Shown here piece by piece: positions 6,817 to 11,847 of a stretch of 34,607 nucleotides of DNA. Below the pieces are notes generated by a model. The model made no database searches. It was not told where the DNA came from and saw only the letters and a program-made list of their open reading frames with translations. The number at the start of each line of letters is the position of its first letter. The first letter of the stretch is position 1. Location of the stretch: positions 1 through 34,607 of the forward strand of contig NZ_JAFUHT010000008.1 of NCBI RefSeq assembly GCF_017468685.1, given 5' to 3'. The DNA comes from Methanobrevibacter sp. (GTDB taxonomy: Archaea; Methanobacteriota; Methanobacteria; Methanobacteriales; Methanobacteriaceae). Made by a program: the position numbers and the translations under genes.

Positions 6817-8208
6817 ATGAACATGTATAGTTTTGTCATTTGTTTTGCTGCATTGGTGGTATCATATTTCATTTATGGGAAATTCATTGAAATGATCTCT
6901 GGTGTTGATGAAACACGCCAGACACCTGCATTTAAACTGCAGGATGGTGTTGACTATGTTCCAATGTCAAAATTCAAAAATTATTTAGTTCATTTTTTAA
7001 ATATTGCTGGTTTGGGACCTATTTTTGGAGCAATACAAGGTGCACTGTTTGGGCCAGCAGCATTCATATGGATTACATTAGGTACAATTTTCATTGGAAG
7101 TGTTCATGATTTCTACTCCGGATTCATGTCCATGAGAAATGATGGACTGACAATGCCGGGCATTATTTCAAAGTATTTGGGAAGTAAAATCCAAAAGGTT
7201 ATGGCAGTTCTTATTGTTGCTACTGGAATTCTTGTTTCAACCACTTTTGCAAAAGGAGCTGCGGATTTGCTCACAGTTCTAACCGGTATTCCAATACTTA
7301 TCTGGATAGTAATAATATTCATTTACTTTTTGGTTGCAACAGTATTTCCTGTTGACAAAATCATTGGAAGAGTATATCCGATTTTTGGAGCATTGCTTTT
7401 AATTATGGTTGTTATTATGACTGGAGCATTGATTTTAAATCCGGCATATAGTATTCCTGAGTTTACAACACAGGGATTGTATTTAACTGACAAAAGTATT
7501 TTTCCATACTTGTTTGTTACAGTAGCCTGTGGTGCTATTTCAGGTTTTCATGCATCACAATCTCCAATCGTTGCAAGATGCGTTGAAAATGAACGTGATG
7601 CAAGGCCAGTATTTTTTGGAGCAATGGTCTTGGAAGGTTTGGTTGCTCTTTGCTGGGCAGCAATTGCAATGGCATTTTTCCACGGACAGCCTCAACTTGC
7701 AGCAATATATGGTGCAACACCTTCAATTGGAGTCTATGAAATGGCAAATACATTAGTAGGACCAGTTGGACTGGTTTTAACCATTGTTGGTGTGGTGATC
7801 TGTCCAATTACTTCAGGTGACACTGCACTTAGAAGTTCAAGGATAACAGTAGCTGATGAGCTTAATCTCAACCATGAAAAAATAATTCCAAGACTTAAGG
7901 TAGCCGTTCCATTGTTTTTAGTGGCATTTGGGTTAACATTTGTTGATTTCAGTTTGATTTGGAGATATTTCGCATGGTCCCAATTGATCGTGGCTACAAT
8001 TGTATTATATGCTGCAAGTGCTTATCTGAGAAAAACTGAAAAACCATATATCGTTGCACTTCTTCCAGCTGTTGTGTGTACTTTAATTGCATTTGGATAT
8101 ATTTTCCAGGCTCCTGAAGGTTTCAGATTGCCTTCATTGATTTCAAATGTGATTTCAGTTATTGCAACGGCCATTGTGTCAATAATATTTCTTAAAAAAA
8201 TCAAATAA
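6817..8208 (+). CDS. cstA: CstA-family carbon starvation protein / transporter
   Basis: A 463-residue polytopic membrane protein with the CstA N-terminal domain: VSYFIYGKF near residue 16, NYLVHFLNIAGLGPIFGAIQ near 54-74, and GSVHDFYSGFMSMRNDG near 94-110. The FHASQSPIVARCV and CPITSGDTALRSSR segments are also characteristic of the family. E. coli relatives (CstA, BtsT) take up pyruvate and peptides; the archaeal substrate is not known. At 463 residues it belongs to the short form found in archaea and Gram-positive bacteria, not the ~700-residue enteric form. The ATG at 6817 is chosen (a second in-frame ATG is at 6823); neither has a good ribosome binding site. It stands alone, between a terminated adhesin gene and a convergent TPR gene. 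Pyruvate import would suit a por-encoding host (inference). Confidence 0.9.
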   Translation: MNMYSFVICFAALVVSYFIYGKFIEMISGVDETRQTPAFKLQDGVDYVPMSKFKNYLVHFLNIAGLGPIFGAIQGALFGPAAFIWITLGTIFIGSVHDFYSGFMSMRNDGLTMPGIISKYLGSKIQKVMAVLIVATGILVSTTFAKGAADLLTVLTGIPILIWIVIIFIYFLVATVFPVDKIIGRVYPIFGALLLIMVVIMTGALILNPAYSIPEFTTQGLYLTDKSIFPYLFVTVACGAISGFHASQSPIVARCVENERDARPVFFGAMVLEGLVALCWAAIAMAFFHGQPQLAAIYGATPSIGVYEMANTLVGPVGLVLTIVGVVICPITSGDTALRSSRITVADELNLNHEKIIPRLKVAVPLFLVAFGLTFVDFSLIWRYFAWSQLIVATIVLYAASAYLRKTEKPYIVALLPAVVCTLIAFGYIFQAPEGFRLPSLISNVISVIATAIVSIIFLKKIK

Positions 8209-8223
8209 ACTATTTAATAAGCG

Positions 8224-8251
8224 ATGAAGGAAATTTATTCTTCATAATTTT
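8224..8251 (+). terminator. Weak terminator hairpin after cstA
   Basis: ATGAAG at 8224-8229 pairs with CTTCAT at 8240-8245 and is followed by AATTTTT, 16 bases after the cstA stop. The stem is only 6 bp, so this is tentative. Confidence 0.4.
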
Positions 8252-8309
8252 TGTGATGAGTTAAAAAAAGATTGGATCTGGTAATAATATTCTCATAAAA
8301 AATAGGTGT

Positions 8310-8343
8310 TTGGTGTTTAATTTGGAGGAGATTTAAACACCAA
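8310..8343. terminator. 11-bp hairpin with T-runs on both sides
   Basis: TTGGTGTTTAA (8310-8320) pairs perfectly with TTAAACACCAA (8333-8343) around a 12-base loop. On the plus strand a T6 run follows at 8347-8352, and on the minus strand T6 follows as the complement of 8297-8302, so it can terminate in both directions between the convergent cstA and TPR genes. The loop is GGAGGAG on the plus strand and CTCCTCC on the minus strand. Confidence 0.6.
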
Positions 8344-8494
8344 GTGTTTTTTGGAAAATTATATTTGGCAGATTTTTTTAATTTTCCAACGACTTGTATC
8401 AAATTAGTAAATTGTGAAAATCTAATTTGACAGATTTTTATATTTTGGAGATTGTATTATTATTTGACTAATAATGTGTTTGTATAAGTGATTA

Positions 8495-8510
8495 TTTAGG
8501 TGTGCCTAAA
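8495..8510. promoter_or_regulatory. Iron-box-like operator, downstream of TATA
   Basis: TTTAGGTGTGCCTAAA, inverted TTTAGG/CCTAAA arms with 4 central bases, resembling operators of DtxR/IdeR-family metal regulators. It lies just downstream of the start predicted from the minus-strand TATA box at 8545-8552. The same motif is found before feoB, which supports an iron link (inference). Confidence 0.6.
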
Positions 8511-8544
8511 TTCATGTCACTTGTATAAAAGTTGGTTGTCATAG

Positions 8545-8552
8545 TATATAAA
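8545..8552 (-). promoter_or_regulatory. TATA box for leftward transcript
   Basis: Minus-strand TTTATATA inside ACATTTATATA. The same 11 bases precede the tRNA-Leu gene in this window (18236-18246), a promoter that can hardly be doubted. Transcription would run away from the TPR stop codon toward the three hairpins. It sits between two iron-box-like palindromes. Confidence 0.55.
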
Positions 8553-8564
8553 TGTTTCTAAATT

Positions 8565-8580
8565 TTTAGGCATGCCTAAA
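8565..8580. promoter_or_regulatory. Iron-box-like operator, perfect palindrome
   Basis: TTTAGGCATGCCTAAA is a perfect 16-bp palindrome directly abutting the TPR stop codon (8581-8583). Being at the 3' end of that gene it is unlikely to control it; it lies 12 bases upstream of a minus-strand TATA box. The motif is shared with the feoB upstream region. Confidence 0.65.
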
Positions 8581-9588
8581 TTAATGGTATCCCATATATC
8601 TCAAAATTACATATAATATTAAAATAATTATCAATATTATAATTGAAGTCCTGGCTGAAAAAAATCTGGTTTTTCTGAATTCCTCATCTTTGACTTCACC
8701 TTTTTTCATGATTCTTTCCTTTTCGAAGGAACATTTTTGATAAATCATTTCCAAATCATTTGGAAGTCTTCCATGTTCATTTAACATGTTTATGGTTTTA
8801 TTTAAATATTTGATGGCTTCCTGTTCGTCATCTAATTTAACACAACAGAAAGCGGCTTTGTAGTTAAAATTAGTAACCAATTCCAAATCATCTTCGATTT
8901 TGCTTTCATAGTTGATACAGGTTTTATAGTTTTTCAATGCATCCTTATACTGCTTCAAATCATACAGTGCATCGCCTTTTGCATTAAAACCGATGATTGT
9001 ATCTTCATTTTGAAGTGACTTGTCCAAGTACTCAATTGCTTTTTCGTTTTTGCCGGTCTTTTGAAGCATCTGTCCTTTATACAAATCGGATTTTTCATCA
9101 CCGCCGAACTGGTTTTCATAAGTATTTAAATTGGATAATGCATCATCATATCTTTTTGCCTGAATTAAAAGCTCAATTTTTCCAAGCAATACTTCTTTTT
9201 TGCTGATACGTGGTTTTTCGATTTTTGAATAAGATTTATATTTGTCAAGAGCTTTATCCATAAGCTCTATTGCTTCATCAATTTTTCCTTTATTGAATCT
9301 GGATAATGCCTTGTCGCTTATTACATTGATTGAACGAGGTTGCTTTTCTAGATATTGATCAAAATACTTTTCACCATAATCTCCATTGTCATGGCTTTTG
9401 TCATAATATTGGTAATACATTCCCTTTTCTTCAACTGCAAGTAAGTAATCAGCATCAATTAATAAATCTAAAATGGTCAAATAATCTTCAACATCATCTT
9501 TTCCATGTCTTTTTCTAGCTAATTTAAGAGCTTCCTTACAATTATTATCTTCAATGTATTTTTTGGCGGTTTCGATTGCATCACTCAT
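8581..9588 (-). CDS. Tail-anchored TPR protein
   Basis: 335 residues. About five tetratricopeptide-like helical pairs are visible between residues 90 and 270, for example ALSRFNKGKIDEAIELMDKA, GDALYDLKQYKDALKNYKTC and AAFCCVKLDDEQEAIKYLNK. A single hydrophobic segment of about 18 residues (IIILIIILILYVILRY) sits at the extreme C terminus, which suggests a tail-anchored protein with its TPR scaffold in the cytoplasm. No enzyme motif is present. The gene is divergent from feoB and shares its promoter region, which holds two iron-box-like palindromes; a TATA-like sequence (minus strand, about 9628-9641) lies close to the start. This suggests co-regulation with iron uptake. A partner role at the membrane, possibly with the Feo system, is only a guess. 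Start: ATG at 9586-9588, no strong ribosome binding site. Confidence 0.85.
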   Translation of the reverse strand: MSDAIETAKKYIEDNNCKEALKLARKRHGKDDVEDYLTILDLLIDADYLLAVEEKGMYYQYYDKSHDNGDYGEKYFDQYLEKQPRSINVISDKALSRFNKGKIDEAIELMDKALDKYKSYSKIEKPRISKKEVLLGKIELLIQAKRYDDALSNLNTYENQFGGDEKSDLYKGQMLQKTGKNEKAIEYLDKSLQNEDTIIGFNAKGDALYDLKQYKDALKNYKTCINYESKIEDDLELVTNFNYKAAFCCVKLDDEQEAIKYLNKTINMLNEHGRLPNDLEMIYQKCSFEKERIMKKGEVKDEEFRKTRFFSARTSIIILIIILILYVILRYMGYH

Positions 9589-9672: not shown

Positions 9673-9707
9673 ATTTAAATATTATAAAATACAATAAAAT
9701 AATATGT

Positions 9708-9721
9708 TTAGGTTAACCTAA
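9708..9721. promoter_or_regulatory. Iron-box-like operator B upstream of feoB
   Basis: TTAGGTTAACCTAA is a perfect 14-bp palindrome and close to the bacterial DtxR/IdeR consensus. It falls at the transcription start predicted from the TATA-like sequence near 9680-9689, where a bound repressor would block initiation. Confidence 0.75.
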
Positions 9722-9750
9722 TTTTTTGTTTATGGATTAGTGAACTTAAA

Positions 9751-9828: not shown

Positions 9829-11847
9829 ATGACAGAATTAATTGTAGGATTAGCAGGAAACCCGAACGTGGGTAAAACTACAGTTTTCAACAGATTAACC
9901 GGTATGCGCCAACATGTAGGTAACTGGCCTGGAAAAACTGTCGAAAGGGCAGAAGGTCATTTCAAACATGGAAGCTATGATTATGATGTTATCGATTTAC
10001 CGGGTAATTATGCATTAAGTGCTCATTCTATGGAAGAAATCGTATCAAGAGATTTCATCGTAGATGATGATTCTGATGTAATTATTAACGTAGTTGATGC
10101 TGCTAACTTAGAACGTAACTTATATTTAACAGTTCAAATGATGGAATTAGGTGCTAATTTAGTAATGGCACTTAACATGAACGATTTTGCAAAGAAAAAA
10201 GATCACATCATTGATATTAAATTGATGAGTGAACTTTTAGGATTCCCAGTTGTTGAAATTAACGCAAAAACTGGTGACGGATTTGATGAATTATTAAACA
10301 CTGTTGAAAAACAGGCTGCAAATCCAATCGATTCAAGTGCAAAATTAGCTTATGGTGATGAATTAAGAGAACACCTAGGAGAATTACAGGCACTTGTTGA
10401 AAAAGACAATAATTTATTGGATGTTCCTTCAGTATGGACTGCAATTAAATTATTGGAAAGAGACTCAATTGTTATAGATAAAGTGCAAAAATCTTCTCAA
10501 AGTTCTGCTATAATGTCTGAAACTGATAAGGTAGCAGGTCACCTTCAAGGCATTTTTAATGAAGGTGCAGAAGAAGTTATTGCAAATGCAAGATATGCAT
10601 TCATTGGTGGATTAATGACAGAAGCCGTTAAAAGACCGGCTGTTGAAAAAGAAACTACTACTGATAAAATTGATAAAATTGTTACAAACAGAATTTTAGC
10701 AATTCCAATTTTCATTGTTATCATGTGGGCTATGTTCCAGTTCACATACACTATTGGTGCTCCATTCCAGGACATGATTGATGAAGCATTTGGAATGTTA
10801 GGTGAATGGGTTGCAGGATTTATTGCAAACGAATATTTAGCTTCCTTCATCTGTGACGGTATCATTGGTGGAGTAGGTGGTGTTCTTACTTTCTTACCTA
10901 TTATTATTCTAATGTTCTTGTTCTTAAGTATATTAGAAGACTGTGGTTACCTTGCAAGAGCAGCATTTACATTAGATAAAATCATGCACAAATTAGTAGG
11001 TCTTCACGGAAAAGCATTTATTCCTATGATTTTAGGATTCGGTTGTGGTGTACCTGCTATTATGGCTACAAGAACCATGGAAAACGAAGGGGACAGAATG
11101 TTAGCTATGATGCTCGTTCCATTCATGTCTTGTACTGCAAGATTACCAATTTATGCTATTTTTGTTGCAGCATTCTTCGCTGAAAATGAAGGTACTGTAT
11201 TATTATCAATTTATCTATTAGGTATTGTTGTGGCACTTATTGTTGCAGCTATCCTCAAAAGAACTATGTTTAAAGGATTATCCACTCCATTCGTTATGGA
11301 ATTGCCTACTTACAAAGTACCATCTGTAAAAGGTATTTTATTACACACTTGGGAAAAAGTAAAAGGATTCTTAAGAAAAGCAGGTACTATTATTCTTGCT
11401 TGTTCCATTGTATTATGGGCTTTAAGTATCTTCCCATTAGGTGTAGAATACGGATCTGCTGAAAGTGTATTAGGTATGATTGGTAGCGTAATTGCACCAA
11501 TATTCGCTCCTTTAGGATTCGGAACCTGGCAAGCTGCAGTAGCAATCATTGCTGGTTTAGCTGCTAAAGAGGTAGTAGTAGCAACCTTCGGTACATTAGC
11601 TGGTATGGAAGAAGATGATGAAGACGGTATTACTCAGTTAGTACATGATACATTCACTCCATTATCTGCATTCTCATTCATGGCATTTACCTTATTATAC
11701 ACTCCATGTTTCGCAGCTATCGGTGCTATCAAACAAGAAACCAACAGTTACAAATGGGCTTTAACCATGTGTGCTATTACATTAGTAACTGCATATATCG
11801 TTTCCTTCTTGATTTACAATGTTGGTCTTTTAGCAGGATTTGGATAG
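9829..11847 (+). CDS. feoB: Ferrous iron transporter FeoB
   Basis: 672 residues, full length for the family. The N-terminal GTPase domain has G1 GNPNVGKTT (10-18), G3 DLPG (56-59), G4 NMND (116-119) and a G5-like NAKTGDG. It is followed by a helical linker and a polytopic membrane domain with two Gate regions and the FeoB signature stretches CGYLARAAF and [14 protein letters not shown]. It imports Fe2+ across the cytoplasmic membrane. The ATG at 9829 has GGGAG 8 bases upstream. feoA follows 163 bp downstream with its own promoter and operators, so the two are separate units. Two iron-box palindromes upstream predict repression when iron is plentiful. The strong, even codon use suggests high expression. 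Confidence 0.97.

Follow-up and report, generated by a model that had tools for sequence, protein, structure and literature searches.

RyhB and the PrrF RNAs are Hfq-dependent, Fur-controlled regulators with an iron-sparing logic, and IdeR is an iron repressor of the DtxR family. The locus described here, on the minus strand at 8580-8297 of a 34,607-nucleotide stretch from Methanobrevibacter sp. (GCF_017468685.1, contig NZ_JAFUHT010000008.1; the stretch is called the window below, and its genome the source genome), probably holds an iron-responsive small RNA (sRNA) gene that is repressed by a DtxR-type regulator and whose product would mask the ribosome binding sites (RBSs) of iron-rich enzymes. 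Its nearest working analogue would be IsrR of Staphylococcus, an iron-repressed RNA with three C-rich single strands that blocks translation of iron-sulfur (Fe-S) enzyme mRNAs, fdhA included, at the Shine-Dalgarno sequence and start codon (PMC9410917). According to the same paper, FsrA of Bacillus subtilis is likewise iron-repressed and aims a C-rich motif at the Shine-Dalgarno sequence, and MrsI of Mycobacterium tuberculosis is predicted to be under IdeR control (PMC9410917). In a methanogen, the trans-acting sRNA162 of Methanosarcina mazei uses an unpaired linker to mask the RBS of a second cistron (PMC3510493).

The window RNA is like IsrR in its C-rich single strands and in having fdhA among its targets, which for the window RNA are predicted only; IsrR differs in being bacterial and Fur-controlled, and the window RNA is unlike it in being encoded by multiple genes, with a TATA promoter of archaeal type. 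FsrA would share the use of a C-rich motif against the Shine-Dalgarno sequence, but it works with FbpA/B/C and Fur. The iron-sparing logic of RyhB, PrrF1 and PrrF2 is also that of our proposal, and the PrrF pair is duplicated (PMC9410917), as are copies of the new gene in a genome called G011 here. MrsI is similar in its DtxR-class regulator, which for the window RNA is putative, and differs in being bacterial. sRNA162 is a methanogen precedent for masking the RBS of a second cistron, as we propose for fwdF; it has no described link to iron, another structure and another lineage. In sequence the window RNA is unrelated to RyhB and PrrF, no relation to FsrA is shown and none to MrsI was seen; Rfam 15 gave no match at the gathering threshold (IsrR included), and relaxed searching gave only matches of E > 1, far below gathering. 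No archaeal or methanogen iron sRNA was described in the open-licence papers searched. The window RNA belongs to no described RNA family and appears to work like the iron-sparing sRNAs.

Structure of the candidate RNA gene

The predicted RNA has a folding energy of -40.1 kcal/mol (z = -6.05), which none of 200 shuffled sequences reaches. The original prediction, an earlier note on this DNA, had proposed a small RNA of about 225 nt, made under iron limitation, here on the strength of two TTTAGG-N4-CCTAAA palindromes, a TATA box identical to that of tRNA-Leu over 11 bases, three hairpins of 9, 11 and 11 bp, a final T6 and the lack of open reading frames (ORFs) longer than 7 codons. Both palindromes are exact and the T6 is present (Table 1). 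The TATA identity in fact covers 12 nt, the three hairpins are found in the minimum free energy (MFE) fold with lengths of 11, 11 and 11 bp, and the ORFs are indeed tiny, the longest within the predicted transcript having 7-8 codons; these small differences in count change nothing material. Two helices had been missed, the 5′ stem enclosing box 2 (which reads TTTAGGCACACCTAAA on the minus strand, 8510-8495) and the 7-bp Hairpin 1. With its own promoter and terminator, the window RNA has the features expected of a structured, non-coding, free-standing RNA gene. It lies in an intergenic region (8209-8580) between convergent genes for a CstA-like transporter (plus strand, ending at 8208) and a TPR protein (minus strand, ending at 8581).

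Table 1. Features of the candidate RNA gene, the neighboring feoB region and the second candidate RNA (RNA2; see below)
Feature	Position	Strand or location	Basis or remark
Box 1, iron-box palindrome TTTAGGCATGCCTAAA	8565-8580	12 bp upstream of TATA box	Exact palindrome; kept in nearly all family copies
TATA box TTTATATA	8552-8545	minus	12 nt AACATTTATATA common to tRNA-Leu promoter
Candidate small RNA gene, about 226 nt	8297-8522	minus	Predicted start near 8522; fold z, family alignment
Box 2, iron-box palindrome TTTAGGTGTGCCTAAA	8495-8510	about +13 to +28; 70 bp from box 1	Exact palindrome
5′ hairpin AAGTGA...TCACTT enclosing box 2	8486-8522	minus	Putative DNA operator and RNA stem at once
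Hairpin 1, ATTATTAGTC-AAATAATAAT, 7 bp	8456-8475	minus	In MFE fold; sequence kept across copies
Single-stranded motif 1, ACAATCTCCAAAATA	8441-8455	minus	Predicted main pairing region
Hairpin 2, loop TTTTCACAATTT	8397-8432	minus	MFE fold and covariation (helix 3)
Hairpin 3, loop motif CTGCC at 8371-8367	8351-8389	minus	MFE fold; arms change in step among copies
Hairpin 4 (terminator), loop motif TCTCCTCC (8331-8324, anti-Shine-Dalgarno-like)	8310-8343	minus	MFE fold and covariation (helix 4)
T6 run after terminator hairpin	8297-8302	minus	T-run also in aligned copies
Iron box TTTAGGTTAACCTAAT, one mismatch	9707-9722	upstream of feoB	Proposed common regulon
feoB, ferrous iron transporter, divergent from RNA gene	9829-11847	plus	TIGR00437 672.6 bits, cut-off 315.65
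RNA2 sites	G011:C1 ~1590940-1591130; L297, L306 (two copies each); G000:C25:7419	reverse (G011)	

Distribution and covariation of the gene family

BLASTN with a 301-bp query segment matched 58 of 60 Methanobrevibacter genomes, many of them more than once. A covariance model built from 32 copies found the family in 63 of 67 Methanobrevibacter genomes (mostly one to five matches each; genome G033 carries copies) and in 0 of 84 genomes from 18 other genera of the order, and named matches to the core pattern are all from Methanobrevibacter, many from ruminant guts. The window copy, itself among the model-building sequences, scores 162.6 bits (8524-8296, E 3.4e-25). The source genome has two other copies (C50:12512-12730 and C75:30029-30240) besides that of the window on C8, and a partial fourth (C50:12879-12941). 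Nearly all of 34 aligned copies have the same order of parts: box 1, TATA box, predicted start, box 2 in the 5′ hairpin, further hairpins, and terminator with T-run. In genome G011 four to five diverged copies are arrayed in tandem beside feoB (C1:712979-714100); these carry different loop sequences, which suggests that the paralogues have diversified.

The stems are conserved as structure. In 50 distinct copies, 97.9% of stem cells in the alignment are paired, with two-sided changes in 11 pairs and 59 cells, against 5.1 pairs and 19.1±3.0 cells in shuffles; when the partner is shifted by one column, pairing falls to 44-53%. These counts are somewhat biased in favor of the structure, since the copies were aligned to the model itself. 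Pairing is 97.2% and 96.2% in helices 1 and 2 (the 5′ hairpin enclosing box 2), 99.2% in the 12 pairs of helix 3 (Hairpin 2), five of which show two-sided changes, and 98.0% in helix 4 (the terminator hairpin). Hairpin 3 was left out by the covariance model, and its arms also change together (GGGAAAT/ATTTCCC, GGAAAATT/AATTTTCC and CATGGAAAC/GTTTCCATG). Three pyrimidine-rich motifs, UCUCC within ACAAUCUCCAAAAUA (motif 1), CUGCC and CUCUCCUC, are unpaired in the MFE folds of nearly all copies in this set that have them, and the CUCC of motif 1 is present in every one; motif 1 and the third motif resemble the anti-Shine-Dalgarno sequence.

Conservation of the hairpins among related genomes, which the original prediction had set in advance as its own test, is thus found, and the pyrimidine-rich motifs, too, are strongly conserved as well as unpaired. 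Family spread, covariation and these motifs strongly support the small-RNA reading, and judged by sequence comparison it is nearly certain that the multi-copy RNA gene family is real.

Iron boxes and the putative regulator

The pattern TTWAGGYNNRCCTWAA occurs 14 times in the source genome and its reversed control not once; the iron-box motif is therefore real. In 27 box pairs the spacing is 70-72 bp; box 1 precedes the TATA box and box 2 falls shortly after the predicted transcription start. The motif that had been reported before feoB in the window is there with one mismatch, and G011 has an exact box 76 nt upstream of feoB. Of 32 loci examined, 20 include feoB, which in most of them is divergent from the RNA gene. 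Control of the RNA by iron is supported by this genomic linkage and by the common operator. Iron boxes also precede an ABC transporter gene and a heavy-metal P-type ATPase gene. With a looser pattern G011 gave eight real matches and five reversed-control matches, so single iron boxes in that genome need care.

An interrupted palindrome near iron-uptake genes, together with an encoded DtxR-type protein (240 aa in the source genome), is the arrangement of a DtxR/IdeR-type regulon, and we infer that such a protein binds the boxes with iron as the signal.

Further iron boxes lie at L036:838, L038:1581, L039:1579 and L034:1558, near hydrogenase-like subunit and cysteine synthase-like genes and in other intergenic stretches, several with an adjacent TATA-like sequence. 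We also note two copies of another palindrome, TGTGTAGTTACTACACA, at L031:1429 and 1619 between a mobB-like gene and the fwd genes, beside an iron box at 1637 that is considered below; this palindrome was not found in G011 or the window.

Predicted targets and a second candidate RNA

Before start codons, an 11-mer complementary to motif 1 mostly has two to seven matches per genome, against zero or one for the control. The genes that recur among these matches are fdhA and fwdF, which share a cluster; both gene assignments score above curated cut-offs. The source-genome RNA could form 13 perfect base pairs with the fwdF RBS, over the Shine-Dalgarno sequence (-17.7 kcal/mol), and 12 perfect base pairs with fdhA (-14.8 kcal/mol). 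The arrangement TTTTGGAGATT-N2-9-ATG stands on the fwdF start in 27 of the 27 listed genus genomes with fwdF and also in G054 (28 of 28 checkable), whereas among 23 outgroup genomes with fwdF only G065 (genus g3) has it; these counts were joined by hand from positions, and the fwdF start is uncertain in some outgroups. Formylmethanofuran dehydrogenase is among the most Fe-S-rich enzymes known, and the G011 version of its polyferredoxin FwdF contains eight Cys motifs of the ferredoxin type. By these comparisons the best-supported target would be fwdF, and the formate dehydrogenase gene fdhA the next candidate.

A wider scan covered the 1,772 called gene starts of one genome, G011, some of which are wrong because they come from simple ORF calling. 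A first, simple test, by which Fe-S genes were enriched (p ~0.004), was set aside in favor of shuffles that keep the anti-Shine-Dalgarno core. FrhG, the top motif 1 target, was rejected since its called start is internal and the region coding. HdrA, the top target of the CUGCC loop, was not relied on: ATGGCAGAAGAA may simply be the code for a conserved MAEE start, and significance was not reached against the core-kept control. Across the genus, the hdrA leaders (L225-L254) retain a self-complementary CTTGTACAAG immediately ahead of the GGTGA Shine-Dalgarno sequence.

Downstream of dphB, and convergent with it, is a second candidate RNA, RNA2, with a TATA box, a terminator hairpin GAAGTAG..CTACTTC with CTCTCCCC, and a T-rich end (sites in Table 1). 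Its UCAACCAUUUUAUAAUCUCCAAA is perfectly complementary over 23 nt to the RBS and start codon of fdhA (-38.7 kcal/mol), and no iron box was seen at RNA2. The iron-box RNA may work alongside this second RNA, which would be dedicated to fdhA.

Alternative explanations

Several observations weigh against an iron-sparing role or against the assignment of these targets. With the anti-Shine-Dalgarno core fixed in the shuffles, the Fe-S enrichment for motif 1 is borderline, with 3 of the top 30 against 0.7 expected (1 of 40 core-kept shuffles was as high), and under the same control the CUGCC and CUCUCCUC loops showed no Fe-S enrichment in the G011 scan. Conservation of the fwdF site is no proof of pairing because leaders can be well conserved generally in this genus, as those of hdrA also are. 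Genomes G012 and G032 (75-77% complete), in which no sRNA copy was detected, keep the fwdF motif, and so does G065, from a genus without a detected copy. The source genome has an iron box upstream of its fwd genes (L031:1637; absent in G011), which taken alone would predict the opposite effect of low iron. The metal sensed by the regulator (Fe, Mn or other) is suggested by feoB only. Finally, RNA2, which is unrelated to the iron-box RNA, also carries AAUCUCCAAAA; because of this common sequence and the 23-nt match, the fdhA site is better explained by RNA2, and the fwdF site could perhaps be explained by it too.

The borderline enrichment would also fit an sRNA under DtxR control whose main job is not iron sparing, and which might instead serve another metal, act on transport or envelope targets, or activate genes. 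Some of the remaining 11-13 nt matches in G011 fall on genes without an evident iron link, and there are iron boxes in the genome before genes whose function is different or unknown. We nevertheless think such an sRNA unlikely, though worth keeping in mind, given the linkage to feoB with its common box and given that the commonest motif-bearing genes in the genus, fwdF and fdhA, are those of Fe-S enzymes.

It seems improbable that the TTTTGGAGATT sites of both fdhA and fwdF belong to RNA2 and that the iron-box RNA has other targets altogether. The long fdhA match, which includes the start codon, and the lack of a visible iron box there do speak for this, but the match of the source-genome iron-box RNA to fwdF (ATTTTGGAGATTG, 13 nt) includes the G after GGAGATT, which G011 RNA2 leaves unmatched.

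The position between convergent genes might suggest a cis element, namely a structured leader, a riboswitch, or a 3′ untranslated region or terminator of a neighbor gene, and the hairpins could also serve the plus-strand CstA-like gene. However, in 19 of 28 copies no same-strand ORF of at least 60 aa starts within 250 nt downstream, and neighbor genes vary between genomes, the CstA-like gene adjoining the window copy only, so the RNA gene is free-standing; nearly all aligned copies also have their own boxes, TATA box and terminator, and a cis element is very unlikely. Unexpressed mobile or repetitive DNA, like repetitive extragenic palindromes (REP) or miniature inverted-repeat transposable elements (MITE), is hardly credible in spite of the several dispersed and tandem copies per genome, since the stems show compensatory base changes, promoter architecture and spacing are conserved, linkage to feoB recurs, and loops are conserved where arms vary.

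Proposed mechanism and implications

Our preferred reading of the window RNA thus remains that of a DtxR-controlled, iron-responsive sRNA, for which an iron-sparing, RBS-masking function is plausible from the motifs and their predicted pairing. When iron is sufficient, an Fe(II)-loaded DtxR-family repressor would bind both boxes around the promoter and at the same time shut feoB. Falling iron would lift repression and let the RNA accumulate, and its unpaired motifs AAUCUCCAAAA, CUGCC and CUCUCCUC would base-pair with mRNAs of iron-rich enzymes around the Shine-Dalgarno sequence and the start, stopping their translation (fwdF being the best supported, then fdhA). Iron would thereby be saved in central methanogenesis while FeoB imports more.

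On balance, and with less assurance than for the window gene, we favor a wider view in which the family is a multi-copy, DtxR-controlled archaeal iron-sparing RNA system that includes tandem diverged arrays beside feoB, tunes the methanogenesis complexes richest in iron (Fwd and Fdh, perhaps others too), and has an origin separate from those of RyhB, FsrA, IsrR and MrsI. To our knowledge no archaeal iron-sparing small RNA system has been known before.

The genus Methanobrevibacter of gut methanogens has a previously undescribed small RNA gene family. If the proposed function is true, archaea would have independently reached the bacterial solution, an iron-repressed RNA whose C-rich single strands cover the RBSs of Fe-S enzymes, and a defined RNA, open to test, would connect iron supply in the gut and rumen with methane production.
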